64,000 bases of DNA from Liolophura sinensis (Eukaryota; Mollusca; Polyplacophora; Chitonida; Chitonidae), in NCBI RefSeq assembly GCF_032854445.1, contig NC_088295.1, forward strand, positions 95,413,805-95,477,804. The letters are read 5' to 3'. This document shows, in pieces, positions 13,511-63,617 of the stretch. Position numbers and translations under genes: made by a program. A model generated the notes under the pieces. The model had not been told where the DNA came from. It saw only the letters and a program-made list of their open reading frames with translations, and did no database searches. Each line of letters starts with the position of its first letter. Within the stretch, counting starts at the first letter, position 1.

Positions 13511-15640
13511 TTAAAATTGGACAACGGGCCTGCCGTTCTGCAGAACGCAAAGAATAGAATTGCGACACCAGGTGGTCTTGAATGTCGCCAACTTTCCGAG
13601 CCTGCGATGCCGTTCAAAAACAGTCAGCAAGTGGTACTGCAGGTCCCTGTGGAAAAGGCTGGGCACCACCTTAAGATGGTCGATCACGTGATTGTGTGCT
13701 ACCACGTAGCACCGGTGCCTCCAAATTGACCAGATACAAAGAAACACCTGATCTCTGACGACCGGTTTCAATGAAGGCGGCACTTGTCTCAAGTCCCCCC
13801 ACAACACATCTTCCAGGCTGAACGAGAACCCTCGTCCAAGGAGGCGCCCAATTGTCCGTTCCAACATCTGCCACATGCTGGACCCAACCGGGCAATGCCA
13901 CACAAGGTGTTCTACGGTCTCGTCCTGAGACGAGCACAAAGGACAGTCGGCAGATGCAGACAGTCCTGCTCGGACTAACTTATGCCCGACCCACCACTGT
14001 CTGTGCCACAGCAGCCAAACAGCCTCCTTAGCTCGGTTGTCTACCCCAGACTTACAGAGCGATAAAAACAAGTTCCTCCAGGACGATGGCACCGAACCCA
14101 ACTGTTGCCACTTCTGGACTCCGGCGGGGGTTCTGTTGTCCACCAGAAGTATCCGATACCATCTTCTGGAGGAAAGCTGAGAAAGGTCCTGTTGATTAAC
14201 TTGATACCTCGTCCGGCTGGGATTCGTAATAGTATCCGGCAGATTGAACCATGCCTTCGGTATTGCCCTTCGCACAGCTGCTAGGTGAGGCCAATTGACC
14301 GACTCCAAGACCAGCCACACTCTGGTGCCTCCATCCACAATATCCGACAATCGCCGGATACTGGGCGTGGCCGTCTTACCAGGCATCAAGGGTCTTCCAC
14401 CCTCTCCCAAAATTAGGGGATTTCCATACAAATGCTGATCCAGAGCTTCCTGCCAAGAAGCCGGATCAGCCTCAGTCCGTTTCAGCTTAAAGAAGGTCTT
14501 CAGATGGTGGAAGTATCACCGAGGAAGAGAACTGAAACGCGTTGGCGCTTTAAGCAGCCGGAAAAAATCAACCACAGCGTGGGGTTCACTTTTCGACGCC
14601 ACAAGCCTCCGGCCTACCTGAGCCCACCGAGACGAGCTCAACATAAGCCGCTCCAAAAAAGCCAGCTGTAAGGACTGAACCTTCTTGGGGATATCTACGA
14701 GGCCTAGACCTCCAATTGCCTTGGGGAGGGTACAAACTTTGAAAGAGACCAGAGGCTTTGTACTCTTCCACAAAAAATCCCGACACATCCCAACTAATGT
14801 GTGCTCCTTATCCGCCGGCAAGTCAAAAACTGAGGCAACATACCACAATTTCGACATTGCCAGCAAGTTTAATACAAGAACTCGCCCAACAATGCTTAGG
14901 CTTCTCTTGCTCCACCCCTTGAGGGTGCTGCCGACCTTCTGGATGCGGTCATTCCAGTTAACAGCAGCCGCGTTTTTTGCACCTTGTTTTACCCCCAAGA
15001 GTTTGACGTGATCCTGTGACCATTCAATACCCAAAGGAGTATCGGCACGACCCTTCCAAGCACCCAAGAATAACCCTTTTGACTTGGATCTGTTGACTTT
15101 GCAGCCAGACGCTTTCTGGTACTTGTTCAAGATCGTCTCAGTAATGTGGAAGTCTTCATCATCTCCCACGAAGAGAGATGCGTCGTTGCCATACTGGGAG
15201 ATTTTGATCGAATCTTCGACATCAGGGACTCTCACTCCCTTCATGTCAGACCACCCCAAGAACCTCTGCGGCCAGAACGTAAAGCAGGGGAGACAGAGGA
15301 CAGCCCTGGCGAACTCCACGCTCGAGGAGAACAGGGTCACCAATAAAACCATTCACCATTACACGATTTACAGGGGACTTGTAAAGAAGCCGGATCCATT
15401 TACAAAAAACAGGCCCGAACCCCATCCGCTCCAACACTTTGTGCATAAAAACCCATTCCAAACGATCGAAAGCCTTCTCGTTATCAAGGCTTATGATTGC
15501 CGCCTCGATATCCTCGTGTTCGACCAGCTCTATAAGGTCCCGAACAAGGAAGCTATTGGTGAGGATTGACCTCCCTGGCACAGAACAGGTCTGATCACTG
15601 TGAACAACAAGGCCCATCACGGATCCAAGTCTCCCGGAAC
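13511..15640 (-). pseudogene. Tx1-like LINE ORF2 remnant (RT and C-terminal zinc-binding region)
   Basis: The C-terminal half of a non-LTR retrotransposon polyprotein. The first frame (15620-15246) has the RT fingers and palm: HSDQTCSVPGRSILTNSF, then AAIISLDNEKAFDRLEW (motif A) and GVRQGCPLSPLLYVLAAEVL (motif B), which resemble the Tx1 group. A frameshift near 15250 moves to the frame that starts with MKGVRVPDVEDSIKISQYGND. Here the catalytic YADD-type motif C reads YGND, which should be inactive. That frame has an in-frame TGA at 14516-14518 and continues to 13511. A zinc-binding motif CPLCSSQDETVEHLVWHCP lies in the last part. The endonuclease and the first part of the RT are absent. The upstream edge joins the ORF1 remnant at about 15625-15640. 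Confidence 0.88.
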
Positions 15641-16905
15641 GGAATCATCCATTTCCGACGTCGTGTCGTCCATGGGGATAACTGATCCAGAGGCTTCAAT
15701 GCCGCTAACTTGGTCTTTTGGGGTGTCCTAAAAAAATGGCCTCTGAAGCGGTGCTCCATAAGGACTCATTTACATCTTGTTTTGCAGTTGGCTGGGAAAA
15801 GGTAAATGACTGACTCCACAAGTCTTGTGAAGAGTCTTGCTCGGGAGACTGACCGGTCGAGCTGTACGGAACCAACGGTTCAGTGAAACCCAACGATACT
15901 TTCTCCTGTTTGACCTGGCTAGAAACTGATGAAATACCATCATCTGCATTTTTGTCCACATCATTTTCCTCCTCTTTACCCCCTTCATTCCTACCACCCT
16001 CCTGCCCGTCCTTACCATTATCCATAGCATCTTTATCCTTCCCGTCCTCTGCCTCATTCACCTCATTTTTATCATCATTACCCACTACATCATTGCTACT
16101 CTCCTGTCCACCATCCGTATCCCCATTAACCATTTCACAATCATCCTCAGCCTCATTACTATCATCCGTGTCATCGTCACTGTCATCCTTTCCGTCATTA
16201 TCTTCCCGCTCATTGTCATGATCATCATTATTCATATCCTAGTCGTCCTTATTACCATCGTCCTTATCATTACAATTATCATCCATCGCAACTGCGATGT
16301 CATCTTCATCTCCACTACTTCTCCCATTGTCGCTACTCTCAGTGTCCAGATCTTGAGGACAATTCTTTTGGAAATGACCTTCTTGCCTGCAAATCAAACA
16401 TTTGTTTTTCAGTGGGCAGTCATTTTTGAGGTGGTCTGTCGCCTGGCACAGGTGACAAGCTCGCACCTGCCCTCTGTACCAGACTGGTAACCGAAAAGAT
16501 GCTCCCACCCAATGGCTTCAGGAATGGTGGACGAAATGTTGCTCATCCATACTCTCCTAACCCCATTTTGCAAGGTTCTGTCGAACAGGTAGCATTCTCG
16601 TGCGACAGAGTGCACCGTTCAAACTGTTTGAGAATAGCCCCTATCCGTTCATCCGGAATCTCGTAGGGGCTCTTCACCTTCACCAAAGTTCTGGATTGTT
16701 CAACTTCATAAACCGGACAGTTTACTCCATTAAGCACCAGATCTTCATTAAGTAGTTTGTGCTTGACCTTCTCATTGGCGACAGTGACATTCCACAGATC
16801 CCCAGTAACGTGGACCAAACCCCTCAACACTTTGGGTCCGCTGCCGATGCGTTCCTGCAACCCATGATAAACGTCAATCGCTTTTACATTGCCTTTAATT
16901 CGCAA
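15626..16905 (-). pseudogene. LINE ORF1 (gag-like, two CCHC knuckles), decayed
   Basis: Minus-strand ORF1 similar to the one at 57303. The N-terminal part (DVYHGLQERIGSGPKVLRGL, WNVTVANEKVKHKLLNEDL) runs from 16905 and is frameshifted near 16560-16600. Next comes LPVWYRGQVRACHLC and two complete CX2CX4HX4C knuckles (CHLCQATDHLKNDC and CLICRQEGHFQKNC). A long Asp/Glu/Asn-rich region (about 16235-15960) and a Ser-rich end follow. After another shift near 15715 the text reads SGSVIPMDDTTSEMDD and stops at about 15625. It probably encoded the RNA-binding ORF1 protein of a retrotransposon. The coding text is only lightly damaged. Confidence 0.85.
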
Positions 16906-18177: not shown

Positions 18178-19275
18178 TCAAGGGAAGTAGAATTTCCTCA
18201 TATTCCGTTTTCTCACATTTTCCTCAAACAGCTCAGCGGGCTGCGGATCGTAACCAAAGATGTCAAAGTCTGGTTTGTAAAGTGTTTGCAGTTTCAGCAT
18301 GTCCTCCATTGGCACCTGGCTGTATGCCTCCAATAGAGCTTCTTGTCGGTTTAGCTTGCGTAGGTTTTTATCGCTGTCCCCTTTGTACTTCTGTAAGATA
18401 AACGTCTTCACTTCTTCCTTGGAAACTGATTTATCATGGCTGAACCAATCTGGAAATTCAACAGATTTATTTAGGATGCCGCGCACCTGTTCTTTTCGTA
18501 GAAGTCTCAGCAGTGTTTCTGGTAAAGACATGCAGTTCTGCGCATGTGAGTTATACCGACCGTAGAGACCATACACGTTTTTCTCAAGACGGTCTACCTC
18601 GCTTTCACTTTCCATATCACGAAAAATTATATCATCACCAATGTACTTTTCCAAAATGTAGTTGAGGTCCTGAGAAATTGTCTCCAACTTACCAATGAGG
18701 TCATATTCCACCTCGCAAGGAGAACATACCATGTACATGGGCATCCAGTGCAGGTTAAGACCAGCTTTTGTCTCCACAGTACGGATGACGTGCTTAATAA
18801 ATTCAGGAAACGTGACGTTGTGCCCACAGGATAGTGACAGTTTGTCTGGGTTCTTTCGATTATTGCGGATGATGACTTTCCCAATGTTCCAAAATGATGG
18901 ATTTGTAGTGAAGAATTTATCGATATAACATGCCAGCAGTCTGGAATATGGTTCTCGGACGAATAAAAACGTGGTGAAGTTTTTTAATGTCCAGTGAGCA
19001 ACGCCGAACGGATATTGGCCAAGAGTCGGTTGAGAATTGTCATGGCCAGTTTTCACGTCAAAAGGGCTGAGTCCAGTTTTCGTCCCCGAAGACACCTGGA
19101 ACACCCTTTTCCAAAACGACGAGGCAACTTTAGCAATGGGACAATACAACAGCTTGTGTTTCTCATCCACCGACAGCCTATTGCCGATTAAATCTCTCCC
19201 TCCGTACTCGCTGATTTTGCCTTTGCATGCCTTCAGCAGGGTTTCTCGTCGTTCTCTGTACACACTGTCACTCTT
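18178..19275 (-). CDS. Carbohydrate sulfotransferase (Sulfotransfer_2/CHST8-14-like), gene 1, catalytic exon 3
   Basis: This exon encodes residues 44-408 of a predicted 408-aa type II Golgi sulfotransferase that transfers sulfate from PAPS to a glycan. The PAPS 5'-phosphosulfate motif is CPIAKVASSFWKRV (about residues 88-101). The 3'-phosphate motif is FVREPYSRLLACYIDKF (from about 148). The family-typical stretch HWMPMYMVCSPCEVEYDLIG starts near 219. The acceptor is TTATTTCAG|AAG at 19276/19275, phase 0, and the stop TGA is at 18178-18180. I placed the start in the upstream anchor exon because the frame joins exactly through a 32-nt microexon. Possible N-glycosylation sites include NFT and NVT. 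The length fits the CHST8-14 group. The sugar acceptor cannot be told. No lesion is seen, so the gene looks intact. Confidence 0.92.
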   Translation of the reverse strand, partial: KSDSVYRERRETLLKACKGKISEYGGRDLIGNRLSVDEKHKLLYCPIAKVASSFWKRVFQVSSGTKTGLSPFDVKTGHDNSQPTLGQYPFGVAHWTLKNFTTFLFVREPYSRLLACYIDKFFTTNPSFWNIGKVIIRNNRKNPDKLSLSCGHNVTFPEFIKHVIRTVETKAGLNLHWMPMYMVCSPCEVEYDLIGKLETISQDLNYILEKYIGDDIIFRDMESESEVDRLEKNVYGLYGRYNSHAQNCMSLPETLLRLLRKEQVRGILNKSVEFPDWFSHDKSVSKEEVKTFILQKYKGDSDKNLRKLNRQEALLEAYSQVPMEDMLKLQTLYKPDFDIFGYDPQPAELFEENVRKRNMRKFYFP

Positions 19276-21091: not shown

Positions 21092-21123
21092 CCTGGAGAA
21101 CAAGGACAGATGAGAAGCATTAC
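21092..21123 (-). CDS. Sulfotransferase gene 1, microexon 2 (32 nt)
   Basis: On the minus strand TTATTTGTTTCAG precedes the 32-nt exon and CCAGG|GTAAGT follows. With the single G carried from exon 1 it encodes G-N-A-S-H-L-S-L-F-S-R and leaves phase 0, which joins exactly to AAG at 19275. It adds an Asn-Ala-Ser sequon to the stem region. The match in position, phase (1 in, 0 out) and ending (TCTCCAGG|GTAAGT) with the 38-nt microexon of gene 2 at 54081-54118 is strong evidence that it is real. Confidence 0.88.
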
Positions 21124-50173: not shown

Positions 50174-51274
50174 TCATGAAAAATAGAATTTCCTCATATT
50201 CCGTTTTCTCATATTTTCCTCAAACAGCTCAGCGGGCTGCGGATCGTAACCAAATATGTCAAAGTCTGGTTTGTAAAGTGTTTGCAGTTTCAGCATGTCC
50301 TCCATTGGCACCTGGCTGTATGCCTCCACTAGAGCTTCTTGACGGTTTAGTTTGCGTAGGCTTTTATCGCTGTCCCCTTTGTACTTCTGTAAGATAAACG
50401 TTTTCACTTCTTCCTTGGAAACTGATTTATCATGGCTGAACCAATCTGGAAATTCAACAGATTTATTTAGGATGCCGCGCATCTGTTCTTTTCTGAGGTA
50501 TCTCCTTAAAGACTCAGATAACGGCATACAATCCGCAACATGCGAGTTATTCCGACCGTACACATTCACCAGATTTCTGACAAGATTGTCTACTTCGCTT
50601 TCACTTTCCATGTCATTAAAAATAATGTCATCACCAAAGTGCTTTTCCAAAATGTAGTTGACGTCCTGGGAAATTGTCTCTAACTTACCGACGAGGTCAT
50701 ATTCCACCTCACAAGGAGAACATACCATATACACGGGCATCCAGTGCGAGTCAAGTCCAGATCTTGTCTCCACAGTACGAATGACGTGTTTAATAAATTC
50801 AGGAAATGTGACATTGTGTCCACAGGATAATGACAATTTGTCTGGGTTCCTCCGATAATTCCGGATGATGACTTTCCCAATATTCCAAAACAAGGGGTTT
50901 GTAGTGAAGAATTTATCGATATAGCACGCCAGCAGTCTGGAATATGGTTCTCGGACGAACAAAAACGAAGGGTATGTTGTCAGCATCCATTCAGAAACAT
51001 TTGCAGGATATCTCTCTAATCTGTACAAGGAGCCGTTAGTTCTCCCCACATCATAGGGATTGAGTCGACTTTTCGTACCAAATGATAGGCTTACCCTAAA
51101 TATTCTTTTCCAGAACGTCGAAGCGACTTTATTAACTGGACAATACAGCAGTTTGTGTTTCTCGTCCACGTATAGGCGTCTGCCAGTGGAAACACTGCCT
51201 CCATACTCTGCTCCCTTACAGGCCTTAAGTACGTTTAATCGTCGGTCTAACAGAAGGTCTGCTACATCTGCTTT
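50174..51274 (-). CDS. Carbohydrate sulfotransferase (Sulfotransfer_2/CHST8-14-like), gene 2, catalytic exon 3
   Basis: Encodes residues 40-405 of a predicted 405-aa type II Golgi sulfotransferase, paralogous to gene 1. The 5'-PSB motif is CPVNKVASTFWKRI (about residues 84-97). The 3'-PB motif is FVREPYSRLLACYIDKF (from about 145). HWMPVYMVCSPCEVEYDLVG follows. The acceptor is TTGCACATTTCAG|AAAGCA at 51275/51274, phase 0, and the stop TGA is at 50174-50176. The last ~97 residues differ from gene 1 at about four positions, whereas residues before motif 1 and around LVNVYGRNNSHVADC differ much more. No lesion is visible. The glycan acceptor is unknown. A minisatellite begins about 20 bp upstream of the acceptor and another about 10 bp after the stop. 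Confidence 0.92.
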   Translation of the reverse strand, partial: KADVADLLLDRRLNVLKACKGAEYGGSVSTGRRLYVDEKHKLLYCPVNKVASTFWKRIFRVSLSFGTKSRLNPYDVGRTNGSLYRLERYPANVSEWMLTTYPSFLFVREPYSRLLACYIDKFFTTNPLFWNIGKVIIRNYRRNPDKLSLSCGHNVTFPEFIKHVIRTVETRSGLDSHWMPVYMVCSPCEVEYDLVGKLETISQDVNYILEKHFGDDIIFNDMESESEVDNLVRNLVNVYGRNNSHVADCMPLSESLRRYLRKEQMRGILNKSVEFPDWFSHDKSVSKEEVKTFILQKYKGDSDKSLRKLNRQEALVEAYSQVPMEDMLKLQTLYKPDFDIFGYDPQPAELFEENMRKRNMRKFYFS

Positions 51275-52219: not shown

Positions 52220-54010
52220 TGTTATGTGAGTGTGGTACAGTACTAGAATGCTTCTAAAGCTCCTGTGAGTGGGCTACAATAGTAGAATGCTGCCAAAGTT
52301 TCTGTGAGTGAGCTACAATATTAGAATGCCGCCAAAGCTCATGTGAGTGTGGTACAGTACTAGAATGCTGCTAAAGCTCCTGTGAGTAAGCTACAATAGT
52401 AGAATGCTGCTAAAGCTCCTGTGAGTGAGCTACAATATTAGAATGCTGCCAAAGCTCATGTGAGTGAGGTACAGTACTAGAATGCTGCTAAAGCTCATGT
52501 GAGTGAGGTACAATATTAGAATGCTGCTAAAGCTCCTGTGAGTGAGGTACAGTACTAGAATGCCGCCAAAGCTACTGTGAGTGAGGTACAGTACTAGAAT
52601 GCTGCCAAAGCTCATGTGAATGAGCTACAATATTACAATGCTGTCAAAGCTCATAAGAGTGACCTACAATAGTAGAATGCTGCTAAAACTCATGTGAGTG
52701 AGGTACAGTACTAGAATGCTGCTAAAGCTCCTGTGAGTGAGCTACAATATTAGAATGCTGCTAAAGCTCATGTGAGTGAGCTACAATAGTAGAATGCTGC
52801 CAAAGCTCATGTGAGTGAGTTACAATATTAAAATGCTGCTAAAGCTCATGTGAGTGAGGTACAGTACTAGAATGCCGCCAAAGCTCATGTGAGTGAGCTA
52901 CAATATTAGAATGCTGCTAAAGCTCATGTGAGTGAGGTACAGTACTAGAATGCTGCTAAAGCTCATGTGAGTAAGCTACAATATTAGAATGCTGCTAAAG
53001 CTCCTGTGAGTGAGCTACAATAGTAGAATGCTGCCAAAGCTCATGTGAGTGAGCTACAATAGTAGAATGCTGCTAAAGCTCATGTGAGTGAGCTACAATA
53101 TTAGAATGCTGCTAAAGCTCCTGTGAGTGAGCTACAATAGTAGAATGCTGCCAAAGCTCATGTGAGTGAGCTACAATATTAGAATGCTGCCAAAGCTCTC
53201 GTGAGTGAGGTACAGTACTAGAATGCTACCAAAGCTCCTGTGAGTGAGCTACAATATTAGAATGCTGCTAAAGCTTCTGTGAGTGTGGTACAGTACTAGA
53301 ATGCCGCCAAAGCTACTGTGAGTGAGGTACAGTACTAGAATGCCGCCAAAGCTCCTGTGAGTGAGCTACAATAGTAGAATGCTGCTAAAGCTTCTGTGAG
53401 TATGGTACAGTACTAGAATGCTGCTAAAGCTTGTGTGAGTGAGCTACAATATTAGAATGCTGCTAAAGCTCGTGTGAGTGAACTACAATATTAGAATGCT
53501 GCTAAAGCTCATCTGAGTGAGGTACAGTACTAGAATCCCTCCGAAGCTACTGTGAGAGAGGTACAGTACTAGAAAGCTGCTAAAGCTCATGTGAGTGTGG
53601 TACAGTACTAGAATGCTGCTAAAGCTCCTGTGAGTGAGTTACAACAGTAGAATGCTGCCAAAGCTCATGTGAGTGAGCTACAATATTAGAATGCTGCTAA
53701 AGCTCCTGTGAGTGAGGTACAGTACTAGAATGCCGCCAAAGCTCATGTGAGTGAGGTACAGTACTAGAATGCTGCTAAAGCTCCTGTGAGTAGGCTACAA
53801 CAGTGGAATGCTGCCAAAGCTCATATGAGTGAGCTACAATATTAGAATGCTGCCAAAGCTCCTGTGAGTGAGCTACAATATTAGAATGCCGTCAAAGCTA
53901 CTGTGAGTGAGCTACACTACTAGAATGCTGCTAAAGCTCATGTGAGTGGGCTACAATGTTGCTAAAGCTACTGTGAGTGAGTTACAATATTAGAAAGCCA
54001 CTAAAGCTCT
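52220..54010. repeat. 39-bp minisatellite in gene 2 intron 2
   Basis: About 46 copies of GTGAGTGAGCTACAATATTA plus GAATGCTGCTAAAGCTCAT. Two alternating forms (GAGCTACAATATT and GAGGTACAGTACT) are mixed irregularly. It abuts the 32-bp array directly. Confidence 0.96.
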
Positions 54011-54080: not shown

Positions 54081-54118
54081 CCTGGAGAATACAGACGCCA
54101 TTGACAAATAGCTGTCAC
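54081..54118 (-). CDS. Sulfotransferase gene 2, microexon 2 (38 nt)
   Basis: On the minus strand CCGTTTATTTCAG precedes the 38-nt exon and CTCCAGG|GTAAGT follows. With the G from exon 1 it encodes G-D-S-Y-L-S-M-A-S-V-F-S-R and ends in phase 0, joining AAAGCA at 51274 in frame. The ending TTCTCCAGG|GTAAGT is shared with the gene 1 microexon, but the rest of the sequence differs and it is two codons longer. It is an island of about 100-130 bp of non-repeated DNA within nearly 13 kb of intron. Confidence 0.88.
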
Positions 54119-54389: not shown

Positions 54390-54965
54390 TAATGATGTTA
54401 CAACAGCGATATCACATTTCACCCAGATGTCACATCATTGACAGTGATATCACATTTCACCCAGATGTCAGATGATGAACAACGATATCACATTTCACCC
54501 AGACGTCACATCAAGCACAGCAATATCACATTAAACCCAGATGTCACATTATGGACAGTGATATCACATTAGGACGCAGATGTCACATCATGCACAACAA
54601 TATCACATTTCACACAGATGTTACATCATGTACAGTGATATCATATTTCACCCAGATGTCACATAAACAACAGCGATATCACATTTCACCAAGATGTCAC
54701 ATCATAAACATCAGCGATATCATCCGGATGTCACATCATGGACAGTGATATCATATTTCACCCGATGTCACATCATTGGCAGCGATATCACATTTCACCC
54801 AGATGTTACATGATGAGGCAACGATATCACATTCCACCCAGACGTCACATCAAGCACAACAATATCACATTAAACCCAGATGTCACATCATGGACATTCA
54901 TATCACATTTCACCCAGATGTCACACCATGGACAGTCATACCACATTTCACTCAGATGTCACATC
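54390..54965. repeat. 38-bp minisatellite in gene 2 intron 1
   Basis: About 15 copies of GATATCACATTTCACCCAGA plus TGTCACATCATGAACAGC. Confidence 0.95.
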
Positions 54966-56010
54966 ATCCGTTGTATCTTGTGTGAGATCTGTAAGACATT
55001 AAGTGGGTGTATCTCATGTGAATTCTGTAATACATTACCTTGTTGTATCTTGTGTGGGTTCTGTATACATGCCCTTGTATCTCATGTGAATTCTGTAATA
55101 TATTACCTTGTTGTATCTTGTGTGAGTTCTGTAATACATTACTTTGTTGTATCTCATGTGAATTCTGTAATACATGACCTTGTTGCATCTTGGTGGGTTC
55201 TGTAATACATGACCTTGTTGTATCTCATGTGAATCCTGTAATACACGACCTTGTTTTATCTTGTGTGAGTTGTGTAATACATTACCTTGTTGTATCTCAT
55301 GTGAATTCTGTAATACATGACCTTGTTGTATCTTGTGTGAATTCTGTAATACATTACCTTGTTGTATCTTGTGTGAGTTCCTGTAATTACATGACCTTGT
55401 TGTATCTGTGTGAGTTCTGTAATACACGACCTTGTTGCATCTTGTGTGGTTCAGTAATACATGGACCATTGTTGTATCTCATGTGAATCCTGTAATACAC
55501 GACCTTGTTGTATCTCATGTGAATTCTGTAATACATGACCTTGTTGTATCTTGTGTGAATTCTGTAATACATTACCTTGTTGCATCTTGTGTGAGTTCTG
55601 TAATACATTGCCTTGTTGTATCTTGTGTGAGTTCTGTAATACATTACCTTGTTGTATCTTGTGTGAGTGCTGTAATACATGACCTTGTTGCATCTTGTGT
55701 GGGTTCTGTAATACATGACCTTGTGTATCTTGTGTGAGTTCTGTAATACATTACCTTGTTGTATCTTGTGTGAGTTCTGTAATACATTACCTTGTTGTAT
55801 CTTGTGTGAGTTCTGTAATACATTACCTTGTTGCATCTTGTGTGAATTCTGTAATACATTACCTTGTTGTATCTTGTTTGAGTTCTGTAATACATGACCT
55901 TGTTGTATCTTGTCTGAATTCTGTAATACATTACCTTGTTGTATCTTGTGTGAGTTCTGTAAAAGGTTGTATCTTGTTTGAGTTCTGTAATACATTGCCT
56001 TGTTGCCATT
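54966..56010. repeat. 36-bp minisatellite (TGTAATACATTACCTTG type)
   Basis: About 29 copies of TGTAATACATTACCTTGTTG plus TATCTTGTGTGAGTTC. On the transcribed (minus) strand each unit contains CAACAAG|GTAATGTAT, a 5' splice-site-like word. It abuts both neighbouring arrays. Confidence 0.95.
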
Positions 56011-57085
56011 CTATAATCGTATCTCCTATCAATAATATTTACAATTATCTGATTGCATCTCGTATCAATGCTGTAAACCATTACTTGATCATATCTCGTA
56101 TCAGTACTGTATAGCATTCCCTGACTGCATCTTTCACCATTACTATTTACCTTTACCTGATCGTATCTGGTATCAGTACTGTATACCATTACTTCAGCGT
56201 ATCTAGTATCAATAGGGTACACCATTATCTGATTATATCTCCCATGAGTAGGGTTTACTATTAACTGATTGTATCAGTACAGTATACCATTACCTGAGTA
56301 TATCTGGTATCAGTAGATTGTACCATTATCTGATTGTATCTGGTATTAGAAGGGAATACCATTACCTGAGCGTATCAAGTATCAGTGGGGTATACCATTA
56401 TTTGCTCGTACCTAATATCAGTACTGTATACCATGACCAGATGGTATCTCGTATCAGTACTGTATACCATTACTTCAGCGTATCTCGTATCAATAGGGTA
56501 CACCATTATCTGATTATATCTCCCATGAGTAGGGTTTACTATTAACTGATTGTATCAGTACAGTATACCATTACCCGAATATATCTGGTATCAGTAGATT
56601 GTACCATTATCTGATTGTATCTGGTATTAGAAGGGAATACCATTACCTGAGCGTATCAAGTATCAGTGGGGTATACCATTATTTGCTCGTACCTAATATC
56701 AGTACTCTATACCATAACCTGATCGTATCTCTTATCATTAGTGTATACCATGACCAGGCCGAATCTCGTATCAGTACTGTATACCATTACCTGATCGCAT
56801 CTGGTATTATTTCTATATACCATAACCTGATTGCATCTCGTGTCAGTACTGTATACCATTGCCTGATCGTATCTGGTATCAGTAGGGTCTACTATTACCT
56901 GATCGTATATAATATCAGTACTGTATACTATTGCCTGATCGTATATAATATCAGTACTGTATACTATTGCCTGATCGTATATAATATCAGTACTGTATAC
57001 CATTACCTGATCGTATATAATATCAGTACTGTATACTATTTGCCTGATCGTATATAATATCAGTACTGTATACCATTACCTGAGC
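56011..57085. repeat. 36-bp minisatellite (GTATACCATTACCTGATCG type), left block
   Basis: About 30 copies of GTACTGTATACCATTACCTG plus ATCGTATCTCGTATCA. On the minus strand each unit reads GATCAG|GTAATGG. It is the same array as 62630-63538, separated from it by the LINE at 57086-62620. A ~280-bp block is duplicated: the text at 56318-56440 recurs at about 56599-56721. Confidence 0.95.
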
Positions 57086-57302
57086 TTTTGTTTAGTGGTC
57101 ACCCAATCTGAAGGTGGTGCGACATTACGTTCTGTCGCTCTTAGAGGCAGGACGTATTCACTAGCCTCTCTGTAAATAGCCTGTACATAGTTTTGCGCAT
57201 TTCCACTTTGTATCGTATCTTTTTTGCACTCAGCATCCACACTGTTCCAAACGCATAGTTGTGGTCCTCTCTTTAGGGTAGTAGTTCTCGCCCTGGCCCA
57301 CA

Positions 57303-58824
57303 ATGTTTTGGGCAGGGCGAGTAAATAGACCCTTAAGCCTTAAACTTGTAATACAGGGAGGTGTACAACCGGTTGAAGTATACAATCGGCTAAAGGAGTT
57401 AGTGGGGAGTGGGCCTAATGTCCTAAAGGGACTAATCAATGTCTCTAGAGATGTCTGGAATGTTACAGTGGCTACGCAAACTGTGAAGGAACAGCTGTTG
57501 ACTAGCGGCTTCTCATTCAAAGGGGTAAATTGTCCAATATATGATGTGGAGGAGCAACGGCTCCTGGTTAGATCTCGATGTCCGATCGAGGTGCCCGATG
57601 ACACTATTCGAGGTTTGATGTCCCGGTATGGCACGGTCCATCACGTCAGCCGGGAACATTACCTTTTTGATAGGTCACTTGAGAATGGTATGCGCCGTAT
57701 TTACATGAGTGGTGTCACCGAGATCATTCCACAATTAATTCCGGTTGGCAATTTTAGAATTCCTTTGTGGTACAGAGGTCAGGTCCGTGCCTGTCACATC
57801 TGTGATAGCACAGAACATTTCAAGGCCGACTGTCCTTTAAAGGATAAATGCCTCAAGTGTAAACAGGCAGGCCACTTTCAACGACTTCCCGTTGAGCGAT
57901 GAAAATGACGATGGCGATAATGACGATAACGATTGCAATGATAATGATGATGATGATAAAGATAGTAATGTTTATGAAGTTGAAGGTGACAATAAAGATG
58001 AGAATGAAGGTCGAGGAGATGATGGTGGTAATCATAGTGAGGGACATGGGGATGATATGGAAACTGGGGTTTCTGGCGAGTCTGTTCCTTCCAGTCAACA
58101 AAATAAAGGGACTTTGGATAACTCTGCTGCTGACAGCGAGGGAGCTGGAGAGTGGCAAGTTGTCACTAACTCCATGTCCTCCAGCAAAAAGATTCGAAAT
58201 AAGCCCATTGATGCTACAAATAAGGTCAGGAAGTTAAGCGAATCGCCAGTAGTAGGTGGGCCACAGAGCCTTTGCGAGGCATCCCAGACGTCAAATAGCC
58301 CGGAGTGGGTTGTCAGTATGAGTCAAATTTCGAATACCTCCTCACCCCCTAGACCGTCAGAAATTTCGAATGCTACGCCATCCTGCATTAAGGAGACGCA
58401 ATCCAGTGGCGTGACGCCCTCCAAAGGTGCACTTGGTAAGAGCCCGTCCTTATGGGGTAGCATGTTCAGCCCTGACCCGTCTACAATGTCACAGTTAGAC
58501 ACTAGAGATATAGCAGATTGTCTTGATCCCCGGGGAAGCTCTCAGCAATCTGATATGTCTAGGGCTGGTGGAGAATCCAATATGGAGGAAGCTCTTTCGG
58601 AAATGGATGCACCCGAAGACTTGCCTGCCTATACCAATGGCAAGGGGGAGGTCTTGGTACCTGTCTCAACATCCCTGGGGTCGTATTATCGCACATTGCG
58701 ACGAGACTCTAAAGTTGACAAGGTTAAAAAGCAGAGGAAGTTGATAACGTTGTCACAGGAGGATTTTGCTGAGCGTAGGGCAGCGATGTATAAGAAGTCC
58801 AGAAAAAATCAAAAGAATAAATAA
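57303..58824 (+). pseudogene. LINE ORF1, gag-like with CCHC knuckles and acidic region, frameshifted
   Basis: The first frame (57303-57890) includes VEVYNRLKELVGSGPNVLKG, WNVTVATQTVKEQLL and LWYRGQVRACHICDS. The first knuckle CHICDSTEHFKADC is intact. The second begins CLKCKQAGHFQ, but a one-base shift follows, and in the restored reading the last Cys codon reads TTC (Phe). The second frame (57892-58824) has an Asp/Asn/Glu-rich stretch, a Ser/Pro-rich middle and a basic end (KSRKNQKNK), with stop TAA 10 nt before the ORF2 ATG. It is similar along its length to the ORF1 remnant at 15626-16905. RNA-binding role by family. Confidence 0.85.
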
Positions 58825-58833
58825 ATATTAATA

Positions 58834-61800
58834 ATGGCTACTACAAAGATCTTACAGTGGAATTGTAGAGGACTGAGGTGTAACCTCGCAGAGCTCCAGA
58901 TGCTAGCTCAAGACCTCAACCCTATAGCTTTTAGCTTGCAGGAAACTCTGACTGATCCTAGTTATCAATGTCGAGGTTATGTATCTCACCACGCTGTTGC
59001 CACGTCTACGAATGGAAAGGCATCAGGGGGTTCTTCTCTTTTGATTAGGCAGGGTGTAATACACAATAACACAATAGAATGGCACTGAACACCGATTTGC
59101 AGGCGGTGGCGGTGCGTATCACACTGGGTATAGTATTAACAATCTGTTCTATTTATATACCACCTTCTTCTACTCTTCACCAACAAGAGCTGCAAAATTT
59201 ATATGATCAATTACCTAAACCGTGTCTTCTTTTGGGTGACTTTAATGCCCATAGTGTTCTCTGGGGTGACTCTAAACGTAACCAGAAGGGCTCTGTATTG
59301 GAGGATTTTATATCTAATAACTCTCTATGCATCTTAAATGATGGCACACATACTTACCTTCATCCTGCAAAGGGCATTTATTCGGTCCTTGGCTGACGCA
59401 GGGCTAAGATCGGAATTCAGCTGGAGCGTCCATGATGATCTGTGCGGAAGCGACCACTTCCCCACCATACTTACCCTTGAGGAGCCGGTATCTTCCTCCC
59501 TTCCACGCTTTAATTATGATAAAGCAGACTGGCCCGCTTTGCTGTTCTGTGTGGTGAAACACTTATTAGCGACCTTTTTCTTGATGCAGTTGATCCTATC
59601 CATTTATTCTCGGATCAGCTAATCGATGTAGCCTCCAAATGTATCCCGAAATCTTGTGCGGTTCCCCGTATTAAGAAACCGTGGTTCACGGAGGACTGTA
59701 AACGAGCTAGGCGTTTCAGGAAACGTGCTGAGCGCGTGTACCGATGTAGACCATCTCCCGGTAATTTAGACGATGTTAGGCGTACCCGAGCTAAAGCCCG
59801 TAGGACTATCAAACAGTCCAAAGGTGACTCTTGGAAACGTTATGTTTTAATTAATCATCGTACCCCTATGTCAAAAGTCTGGAATATGATCCACCGCATC
59901 AAAGGCAAGGGATCCAATGTCACTGTCAATCATCTTAAAGACGGGAATAATTCTTTGACAGAAAAACTTGACATAGCCAATAGGTTGGGCGCTTCTTTTG
60001 CGCATCATTCGTCTTCAGATAATTACTTGCCTCAGTTCCAGCGTAACAAGGAACGGACCGAGGCAAGTCCTCTTGATTTTACATCCTCAAATGAAGAATC
60101 CTACAATGTTACATTTTCTCTACATGAACTATCCGAATCCCTGAGCAAGGCCCATGACTCAACTCCAGGGCCAGATGATATCCACTATCAGCTTTTACGA
60201 CACCTTCCAGAATCTTCCTTGAGGGTGCTTCTTGAATTTTCCTGCCTCATGGCAAAACGTTATTATTGTCCCCATCCCAAAGCCCGGAAAGGATTCTACC
60301 GATCCAAATAACTATCGTCCTATTTCCTTAACCAGTTTTGTATGCAAGACTATGGAGAGGATGATTAACGATCGCTTGGTTTGGTTTTTGGAGACTAATG
60401 AGTTGATAAGCGACATTCAATGTTGATTTCGAAAGAATCGCAGTACTGTTGATCACCTTGTTCGTCTAGAATGCTTTATTAAGAACCGTATCGTTAATCG
60501 TGACCATGTCGTATCTGTCTTTTTTGATCTGGAAAAGGCATATGACACTACTTGGAAATATGGCATTATGAAAGATATGCATGGATTTGGACTTAGAGGT
60601 CGGCTTCCTGACTTTATTCGTAAATTCTTAGACCATCGTCACTTCCAAGTTCGGGTTGGGGCTACCCTATCTGACTACTTTGAACAAGATCAGGGGGTTC
60701 CTCAAGGCAGCATTTTATCAGTTACTCTCATTAGCATTAAGATTAATAAACTTTTCAGAGTTTTATCTCCTAGTATGAAATCGTCCCTTTTTGTGGACGA
60801 TCTTGGTATCTCTTGTCGAGGCAAACGTATGCACACTTTTGAGAGACAGCTGAAGATTTGCCTTAACAAAATCCATGCCTGGGCACTGGAGAACGGATTT
60901 AAGTTCTCCAAGTCGAAGACTAACTGTGTACACTTTTGTCGGAAGTACTTCCCCCATGAAGACCCCAAGGTATTTTTAGATGGGTCCCCCATCAAGGTTG
61001 TGTCGGAGGCAAAATTCCTCGGGGTGATCTTCGATAAGCACCTTACATTTAAATCTCACATTAATTACCTTAGAGCCAGATGCCTAAAGGCGCTTGATAT
61101 TTTGAAGGTTGTCTCTAGTGCTCGATGGGGAGGGGATCATGAAACCCTACTTCAGCTCTATCGAGCACTGATTCGTTCTAAGCTAGACTATGCCTGCAGT
61201 GTTTATGGAGGTGCGTCACGCTCCCAGTTGAAGAAACTCAATACTGTACATCACCAGGCCCTACGGTTGTGCTTAGGTGCTTTCCGCGCCTCTCCTGTGG
61301 AGAGTCTGTATGTTGAGGCAAACGAGCCTCCCCTGGAGCTTCGAAGAACTAAACTATCCTTACAGTATATCACCAAGCTTAGAGCCAATCCATCCAACCC
61401 AGCCTTTGATTGTGTCTTCCATCCGGAATTTGAAGACTTATATGCTCAGAAGCCATCCATTGTTCCTCCACTGGGTGTCCACATTCAGGAACATGTGCAA
61501 GCAGCTGGACTTGGGCTGGATACTATCACCCCCATACGCATCCAGGAAGATCCACCGTGGTTATGTCCTGAGCCTCAGGTTGATACCTCGCTCTCCTCCC
61601 TGAAGAAATCTTCCACCAACCCTCTAGTATACCAGCAGGAGTTTAGTAATATGTGTTCAAAGTATCCATTTTATCACCGCATATTCACTGACGGTTCCAA
61701 GAATGATGATGGCGTGGCTTCTGCCGCTGTCCTTGGGCCCAGAACCATTTCAACTCGGTTTCCAAATTCCTGTTCTGTATTTACCGAGGAAGCCAAGGCA

Positions 61801-62451
61801 ATTTTGTGCGCACTTCGGTCCATCTCAGAGATAGGAGGTAGCAGATTTCTCATCTGCTCTGACTCCCTTTCCTGATTCGAGGCAATTCGGGCTAGTTCGC
61901 CTGTACATCCAGACATTCTGTCTATCAGGGAGATGTTTAAACGACTTAATGAAGATTTTATCATTGTCTTTTGTTGGGTGCCCGGGCATATGGGTATCCC
62001 TCGGAATACTGCTGCAGATGAAGCCGCGAAGGCGGCTTTGCATTCCGTGACTACCCAAACTGACGTTCCATATTCGGACTTGCGTTCACTTATTTGCTCC
62101 TATATCAAGCGCTTGTTTCAGGCTCAATGGGATGACCAGACAACCAACAAACTGCATGATATTCGTCAGTTTGTTGGTCCAGCGGCTTCCCTTTCACGGC
62201 ATCGTCTCCGCTCTTGCATTTTGAGGAGGTGTCGTATCGGTCACACACGTGCTACGCATGGGTATTTGTTGAAAGGAGAAGATGCTCCTCATTGCTTTGC
62301 TTGTGATCAACGGTTCACAGTCAAGCACATATTTGCTCCTGTACGAGATTCCTTTTATCACGTGAGCTCTCTTTCAGAACTTTTCAATTCTGTAGAAAGT
62401 GATACTATTTTTGATTTTCTCTCTACCATTGGTATGGCAGGAAAGCTGTGA
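58834..62451 (+). pseudogene. LINE ORF2, APE endonuclease-RT-RNase H, several disruptions
   Basis: The APE domain starts KILQWNCRGLRCNLAEL, with SLQET, LLGDFNAHSVLWG and CGSDHFPT spread over frames shifted near 59080, 59380 and again before 59736. RT: STPGPDDIHYQLLR, then PIPKPGKD..NNYRPISLT, FFDLEKAYDTTW (motif A), GVPQGSILSVTLISIKIN (motif B) and SLFVDDLGI (motif C, catalytic DD intact). RNase H: IFTDGSKND, FTEEAKAIL, ICSDS and CWVPGHMGIPRNTAADEAAK. The C-terminal CFACDQRFTVKHI is a remnant of the usual zinc-binding end. In-frame TGA codons at 60424-60426 and 61873-61875 break the RT and RNase H frames, and a shift lies near 60300. Confidence 0.88.
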
Positions 62452-62629
62452 TTTTAAACTACCGTTTGTGTTTGTTATGTGACTTCTGGTGTCCTTATTT
62501 GACTGAATGGTAAATGAATTATCCGTAGTAGATCGACTACTTGACGTTTTATTGTCGCGATAAAACTGAAATATTGTTGAAAGCGACGTTAAAACTTTCA
62601 CTCACTCACTCACTCAATAGTTTAAACTG

Positions 62630-63538
62630 TTACCAGCTCGTATCTTGTATCAGTACTGTACACCATTGCCTGGCTGCATCTAGCATCAGCACTATATACC
62701 ATTATCTCATCGCATCTCGTATCAGTACTCCATAGGTTTACCTGGTTGTATCTGGTATCAGTACTATACACCATTACCTGGTCAACTCTGGTATGCAGTA
62801 GGGCATTTCATTACCTGATCGTATCAGTGCCGTTTGTATAATATAAGTACTGTGTACCATTACCTGATCGTAACTGGTATCAGTATGGTATATCATTACT
62901 TGATCGTATCCGTAGTGTATACTATTACCCAGTAGGGTATTTCATTACCAGATCGTGTATAACATTAGTACTGTATACCATTACCTGAGCCTGTCTAATA
63001 TCATTAAGGTATACCACCACCTGAGTGCATCTCGTGTCAGTACTGTATACGATCACCTGAGCGCATCTGGTATCAATATTGTACACCATCACCTGAGTGT
63101 ATCTCATTCCAGTGGTGTGTACCATTTCCCTATATTTTATACCATTACGTATCTCGTATCATTACTGTATAGCCTTAAATGAGTGTAACTCGTATCAGTA
63201 CTGTATAGCATTAACTCAGCCTATCTCCTATCAATACTTTAAACCATTATCTGAACATATCTCGTATGGTTACTGTATTCCATTACCTGAAGGTATCTCG
63301 TATCAAGCCTGTACACAATTACCTGAACGTATGTCGTATGAAGACTGTACACCATTACCTGAACGTATCTTGTATCAATACTGTATTCCATTACCTGAGG
63401 GTATCTCGTATCAAGCCTGTACACAATTACCTGAACGTATGCCGTATGAAGACTGTACACCATTACCTGAACGTATCTTGTATCAATACTGTATTCCATT
63501 ATCTGATCGTATCTCATATCATTACTGTATTCCATTAC
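62630..63538. repeat. 36-bp minisatellite, right block, starting at the gene 2 exon-1 donor
   Basis: About 25 copies of the 36-bp unit of 56011-57085. On the minus strand the first unit starts at the splice donor itself: exon end TGTTAG, then GTAATGGAATACAG, and following copies carry TTCAG|GTAATGG at the same register. A 108-bp block (about 63290-63398, repeated at 63398-63506) is a recent triple-unit duplication. Confidence 0.95.
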
Positions 63539-63617
63539 CTAACAGCACACCGATCAGAATGTAGACCCCGAGCAGCAGTGCCACCCATCTCAGTAGTATA
63601 GGCCCGTAGATCTTCAT
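63539..63617 (-). CDS. Sulfotransferase gene 2, exon 1 (signal anchor)
   Basis: The ATG at 63617-63615 opens MKIYGPILLRWVALLLG followed by VYILIGVLL, a very short basic N-tail and a long hydrophobic signal anchor, as in type II Golgi enzymes. The exon is 79 nt and ends TGTTAG|GTAATG in phase 1, as in gene 1, and joins the microexon at 54118 in frame. The complete CDS is 79+38+1101 nt, 405 codons plus stop, with no break. The peptide shares no clear sequence with gene 1 exon 1 beyond its topology. The start is the only ATG that gives this arrangement. Confidence 0.85.

Follow-up and report, generated by a model that had tools for sequence, protein, structure and literature searches.

Minisatellite arrays at splice junctions in the chiton Liolophura sinensis look like tolerated accidents

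Some minisatellite arrays in introns of the chiton Liolophura sinensis start at an exon edge or extend across it and copy the splice signal, which looks like a tolerated accident and not like a device. We consider it probable that these arrays are neutral minisatellites, locally born at random points of the intron and tolerated since the outermost splice site is used. We infer both that the outermost site is the one in use and that the arrays have had a neutral history; that the spliceosome would choose the first of several donors is suggested by the reading frame only.

Arrangements of this type have been described in amphioxus as 'mirages', i.e. tandemly duplicated exon-intron boundaries in a number of genes including Adh3, globin and PGBD5; these arrays lie at both 5' and 3' splice junctions, carry splice signals in many of their units and are apparently harmless to splicing (PMC3087553, PMC3902484). 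An earlier note on the DNA analysed here had named this precedent, which proved correct, and the host is indeed a mollusc and not amphioxus. Its assembly was first published as Liolophura japonica (PMC11068029), and the species name was later corrected to L. sinensis (PMC12441733).

A sulfotransferase gene with arrays in its introns

The window, by which we mean the whole stretch of 64,000 nucleotides analysed here, carries on its minus strand a carbohydrate-sulfotransferase gene. Its exons 1, 2 and 3 join in frame, with consistent phases (1, then 0), to give a complete protein of 405 residues with a hydrophobic stretch at the N-terminus. The exons, the arrays and the inserted element are as follows, in the order of transcription (a slash marks the exon-intron or unit boundary).

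63539..63617, minus: exon 1 of the sulfotransferase gene; 79 nt, phase 1, signal-anchor-like MKIYGPILLRWVALLLGVYILIGVLLG, donor TTAG/GTAATGG
62630..63538, minus: array A1, right block; 36-bp units, the first at the donor GT, from the sequence and from Tandem Repeats Finder (62630-63540)
57086..62629, plus: putative non-LTR retrotransposon that splits A1; approximate borders; ACTC-repeat tail
56011..57085, minus: array A1, left block; continuation of A1, Tandem Repeats Finder 56016-57083
54970..56005, minus: array A2; 36-bp units AAG/GTAATGTATTACAG..., related to A1
54400..54967, minus: array A3; 38-bp units, last array of intron 1
54081..54118, minus: exon 2 of cassette 2; 38 nt, flanked by TTTCAG/ and /GTAAGT, joins in frame
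52224..53988, minus: intron 2 array; 39-bp units, begins about 70-90 bp past the exon 2 donor and thus not at the donor
50174..51274, minus: exon 3 of cassette 2; Sulfotransfer_2 domain (PF03567), E 4e-43
21092..21123, minus: exon 2 of cassette 1; 32 nt, resembles the short exon 2 of cassette 2
18178..19275, minus: exon 3 of cassette 1; Sulfotransfer_2 domain, E 2e-41

Apart from the retrotransposon and about 280 bp ahead of exon 2, the content of intron 1 is tandem repeats, and tandem arrays with a period of at least 10 cover 27,510 of the 64,000 bases of the window. The consensus sequences of A2 and A1 are identical at 26 of 36 positions in the same register (maximum of 21 in 2000 shuffles). 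The element at 57086-62629, which we class as a probable non-LTR retrotransposon by reading of its sequence, encodes a zinc knuckle in the open reading frame 57285-57902 and a reverse transcriptase in the open reading frame 60427-61875; in the stretch searched, no target-site duplication of at least 6 bp was found. The idea that A1 is a dispersed satellite was dropped, as the array DNA matched only its own locus and one near-copy locus (15 matches in two places); this search of the 609-Mb genome skips very common words, and its result argues against a dispersed satellite and is no proof.

The near-copy of exon 1 and its donor lies 4.4 Mb from the window, at C1:91,073,693-91,074,073, and is 98% identical over 381 nt including the start of the array. 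At this locus, the array begins at the donor in the same way, A1 runs on into A2 without the retrotransposon, whose 5' 700 bp had no match within the locus, and the lengths of the array blocks differ from those of the window; the near-copy is a separate locus. About 21 kb downstream of the exon-1 copy and on the same strand, at C1:91.05 Mb, lies an exon 3 region with two counterparts in the window; over 1201 nt it shares 98.2% identity with the distal counterpart (19398-18201), compared to 82.7% with the proximal one; the near-copy at C1:91.05-91.07 Mb contains one sulfotransferase domain match, like the distal cassette of the window.

Some further features of the window were seen beside these. 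From 63617 to 18178 on the minus strand, a single exon 1 precedes two cassettes of exon 2 and exon 3 (54118-50174 and 21123-18178), and joining exon 1 to either of them yields a complete reading frame. Since searches for exon 1 found only two copies in the genome, the single exon 1 of the window may serve both cassettes, which would then be alternative terminal exons. Open frames at 13511-16905 on the minus strand resemble, by eye, a second, broken retrotransposon of similar kind, although a Pfam scan of the frame 14516-15352 returned no domain. On the plus strand, an exon at 580-709, which we take to resemble a monocarboxylate-transporter exon, has the donor GCAG/GTAAGC at 710, and the nearest listed downstream array begins about 500 bp further.

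Array edge and donor copies at exon 1

As the earlier note had claimed, exon 1 ends in TTAG/GTAATGG and the 36-bp array starts at the GT of this donor. The edge of the array at AG/GT is sharp: the first 36 bases of the intron match the unit consensus at 33 of 36 positions, compared to 11 of 36 for the last 36 bases of the exon. The array resembles the amphioxus mirages in that it consists of tandem units of minisatellite size (36 bp) and keeps the splice signal in many of them, GT being in register in 57 of the 82 units of A1 and A2, real donor included (17 of 24 in the right block of A1, where the real donor is counted, 16 of 30 in its left block and 24 of 28 in A2). It departs from them in that its units contain no exon sequence beyond the AG and the array therefore does not span the exon-intron boundary.

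In order to compare the donors, we derived a score from 111 sampled ones. On this scale, the real donor of exon 1 reached 4.6, with 12 of the 111 sampled donors as low or lower, whereas the usual unit donor CAG/GTAATG scored 6.0 and CAG/GTAATT 8.3; in A1 and A2 together, 33 of the 82 units, real donor included, equalled or exceeded the score of the real donor. Compared to CAG/GTAAGT, the unit donor CAG/GTAATG matches at 7 of 9 bases, in agreement with the earlier estimate for the U1 consensus, and the real donor TAG/GTAATG at 6. The predicted dozens of decoy donors are thus present, many of them with scores above that of the real one. The accompanying statement that every unit carries a donor applies to the 57 units with GT in register and was too strong for the rest, because already the second unit reads ATAATGG. 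Translation beyond the real donor reaches a stop after five codons (GNGIQ followed by two stops), so that the use of a decoy donor would truncate the protein.

The unit GTs are neither kept nor purged. Ranked by conservation among the 36 columns of the unit, the GT columns occupied places 16, 27, 26, 27 and 28 in the five blocks, and the nine donor columns taken as a block occupied places 1, 10 and 3 in A1 and 32 and 30 in A2. Selection on the unit donors was rejected because the GT columns are not special in conservation, albeit with the high ranks of the nine-column block in A1. A general bias of donor-like array units towards the sense strand was rejected as well (20 sense versus 21 antisense of 49).

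Arrays at other donors and acceptors

Exons of four families, sulfotransferases (PF00685), SNF (PF00209), myosins (PF00063) and kinesins (PF00225), were sampled genome-wide, which gave 171 donors and 138 acceptors. A junction was scored as repeated if its 24-mer (-10 to +14) had at least two further copies matching at 17 or more of the 24 positions. We chose the hits by hand with their flanks still unseen, more or less in the order of the listing and among those free of internal stops. Several were passed over, namely some very long open frames, probable last exons, kinesin hits that stopped where the domain ends and, with no fixed rule, a number of others; for the sulfotransferases, we took hits that were likely to be followed by an intron, and a few extra hits came from pieces already fetched. 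The donor of each exon was identified by its score in the region where the profile match ends, and 6 of the first 117 scored below 2 bits. Many of the sampled exons belong to one gene or to tandem genes and are therefore not independent, the 159 pooled donors corresponding to 87 bins of 60 kb. Since 12 of the 171 donors had too little exon sequence and were left out of the pooled re-test, the expectations given below rest on 159 donors.

The donor junction was repeated downstream at 4 of 117 donors in the first sample and at 0 of 54 in the second (4 of 171 in all), compared to 1 of 2314 and 0 of 1577 mismatched donor controls and 0 of 117 windows in exon interiors. The four are true boundary-spanning arrays, because their units contain about 8 to 38 exon bases.

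L008: sulfotransferase donor; 35-bp unit with about 25 nt of exon; 13 of 17 copies equal or exceed the real donor in score
L066: myosin donor; 66/25-bp unit with about 16 nt of exon; 7 of 14 copies score at least as high
L071: myosin donor; 32-bp unit with about 8 nt of exon; 7 of 17 copies score at least as high
L113: kinesin donor; 63-bp unit with about 38 nt of exon; 0 of 11 copies score at least as high

A fifth donor, at C10:32201851, passed as an automatic match only, with the threshold lowered to 16/24. For acceptors, repetition of the junction upstream was found at 0 of 77 initially, and 2 of 138 were accepted in the enlarged set after inspection; the automatic test gave two positives at 138, and 2 of 1374 mismatched acceptor pairs.

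C9:4628084: acceptor; 27-bp units repeat the pyrimidine tract, CAG and the start of the exon; exon start judged by eye, array open in the exon frame
C10:16007510: acceptor; junction plus about 30 exon bases in triplicate; passes at 16/24 and not at 17/24 in that window

The second of these was retained below the threshold since the triplicated junction is plain in the sequence. Another acceptor, at C1:4562919, passed the automatic test and was dropped, as its array stops short of the true acceptor by a few tens of bp. Units that span the boundary, as in the mirages, were thus found at six sampled junctions, the donors L008, L066, L071 and L113 and the acceptors at C9:4628084 and C10:16007510, and with two acceptor arrays beside the donor arrays both ends of introns are affected.

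Two kinesin loci showed features of their own. In L141 (C9:4627809-4628612), the 27-bp acceptor array is open in the frame of the kinesin exon, in an open frame of 443 residues, so that splicing to an acceptor in one of the upstream units would insert a repeat of 9 residues and no stop. In L114 (C9:760888-761708) and L136 (C9:761729-762627), the units of an intron array repeat the donor-like GCAGA/GTAAGT; this array is seen from 79 bp past the donor, and again until about 33 bp before the next exon match.

Most of the 28 arrays found downstream of donors start elsewhere in the intron than at the donor; in the first 700 bp of the introns, the starts ranged from -38 to +635. The number of junction arrays expected under random birth was calculated from the array density in intron interiors and the mean unit length for 159 donors and 138 acceptors. 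At donors, 4 junction arrays were observed compared to 1.7-1.9 expected of 159 (P 0.09-0.13), at acceptors 2 compared to 1.5 of 138 (P 0.45), and at both ends together 6 compared to 3.2-3.5 (P 0.10-0.14). Array starts between one unit before and 35 bp after the donor numbered 7 compared to 3.1-3.4 expected (P 0.04-0.05, with a cut-off picked after seeing the data); there may be an about two-fold excess of array starts near donors, which is not established. Donors are not clearly special over acceptors, the hit rates of 4 of 171 and 2 of 138 being too small in number to separate the two. The proposal that array starts are enriched at donors, checked here on the sample of four families, and with it a donor-specific rule, thus found no support, because acceptors do likewise and the donor counts are near the random expectation.

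Origin of the arrays and comparison with known systems

According to the reading that we favour as probable, the introns of L. sinensis would be rich in locally born minisatellites, whose tandem duplications would start at roughly random positions along the intron. Where the first or last unit happened to fall on a splice junction, each further unit would copy the splice site. Such an allele would survive if the outermost site, beside the exon, were still used and the copies thereby stayed intronic, and the splice-site copies in the units would then drift, neither kept nor purged. The window array could be such a case, in that it abuts the donor without exon sequence beyond the AG. What counts against this neutral reading is the edge of the window array: it falls at most 2 nt from the junction while the unit is free of exon bases, and simple arithmetic makes this about 7% likely under random placement. 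Further points against it are the excess of array starts near donors, the conservation of the nine-column donor block in A1 and the lower hit rate at acceptors than at donors, the last in numbers too small to separate the two.

The excess of starts near donors (7 compared to 3.1-3.4 expected) speaks for the view of the earlier note that the array grew from the exon-intron junction, which here would mean a process favouring donors, for example an instability that depends on the donor sequence or on splicing. The units at four sampled donors do include exon sequence, with about 8 nt at L071, 16 at L066, 25 at L008 and 38 at L113. The units of the window array, unlike those of these four loci, hold no exon sequence beyond the AG, and growth from the junction is therefore unsupported for this array; moreover, acceptors show arrays too, junction-spanning donor arrays numbered 4 compared to 1.7-1.9 expected (P 0.09-0.13) and the second sample gave 0 of 54, and we regard a donor-favouring process as rather unlikely. 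The sharp edge without exon homology would instead be explained if the array were older than the junction and had supplied the donor, exon 1 ending at the first AGGT of a pre-existing minisatellite. An ordinary first intron unit (33/36) next to an unrelated exon (11/36) and a weak real donor (12 of 111 sampled donors as low or lower) are both consistent with such a capture, and AGGT in tandem repeats is known as a recruited splice site (PMC10809524, PMC3443670). Yet no relative with the intron and without the array was found, as both copies of exon 1 carry it, and we judge a captured donor to be quite unlikely. If it were true, a non-coding tandem repeat would have set the end of an exon, and if it were true across chitons, minisatellites would keep supplying new splice sites to either end of introns.

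The repeated AG/GT sites might also be in use, either for recursive splicing, which would shorten the long intron step by step, or for the binding of U1, which would protect the long transcript. The units do carry AGGT in sense orientation, 57 of 82 with GT in register, and dual-specific AGGT sites in tandem repeats exist in human genes (PMC10809524). We consider such a use very improbable, however, given that the unit GTs are no better conserved than other columns, that by inspection the units lack the pyrimidine tract before the AG that an acceptor needs, and that donor-like units show no general strand bias.

The amphioxus mirages looked like a lancelet oddity, and about 2% of the sampled chiton junctions share the arrangement, which is near the rate of random birth. 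The start of an array at a splice site thus does not by itself imply a special mechanism. If this applies genome-wide, animals with dense intronic minisatellites should have many introns with several to at least 12 near-identical competing splice sites, sometimes stronger than the real one, and such introns would be natural test cases for the choice of the outermost site by the spliceosome.

In the literature on intron repeats of molluscs, chitons and lophotrochozoans, taken at the level of titles and abstract openings and with few subscription journals included, we found no report of repeats at splice sites. A likeness within lophotrochozoans is found in earthworm metallothionein genes, which also carry a large tandem array in intron 1; their monomers have a mean of about 180 bp, and the passages available from that source are silent on an array starting at or copying the donor (PMC12783039). 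The chiton arrays resemble intron gain by tandem genomic duplication in that tandem AGGT copies offer several possible splice sites (PMC3443670), and differ from that model, in which a new intron arises within an exon, in that the chiton repeats sit in introns between exons of known families. With the dual-specific AGGT sites of polyubiquitin and VCX3A they have in common that AGGT recurs in the same register (PMC10809524); the use of those sites is backed by RNA, and in polyubiquitin the repeats belong to the coding sequence, whereas the window repeats, read at the DNA level, have stops in the frame of the exon. The six chiton junctions, four donors and two acceptors, fit the amphioxus mirages at the level of DNA; unlike in amphioxus, the host is a mollusc, and the window array adjoins its donor without spanning the boundary.
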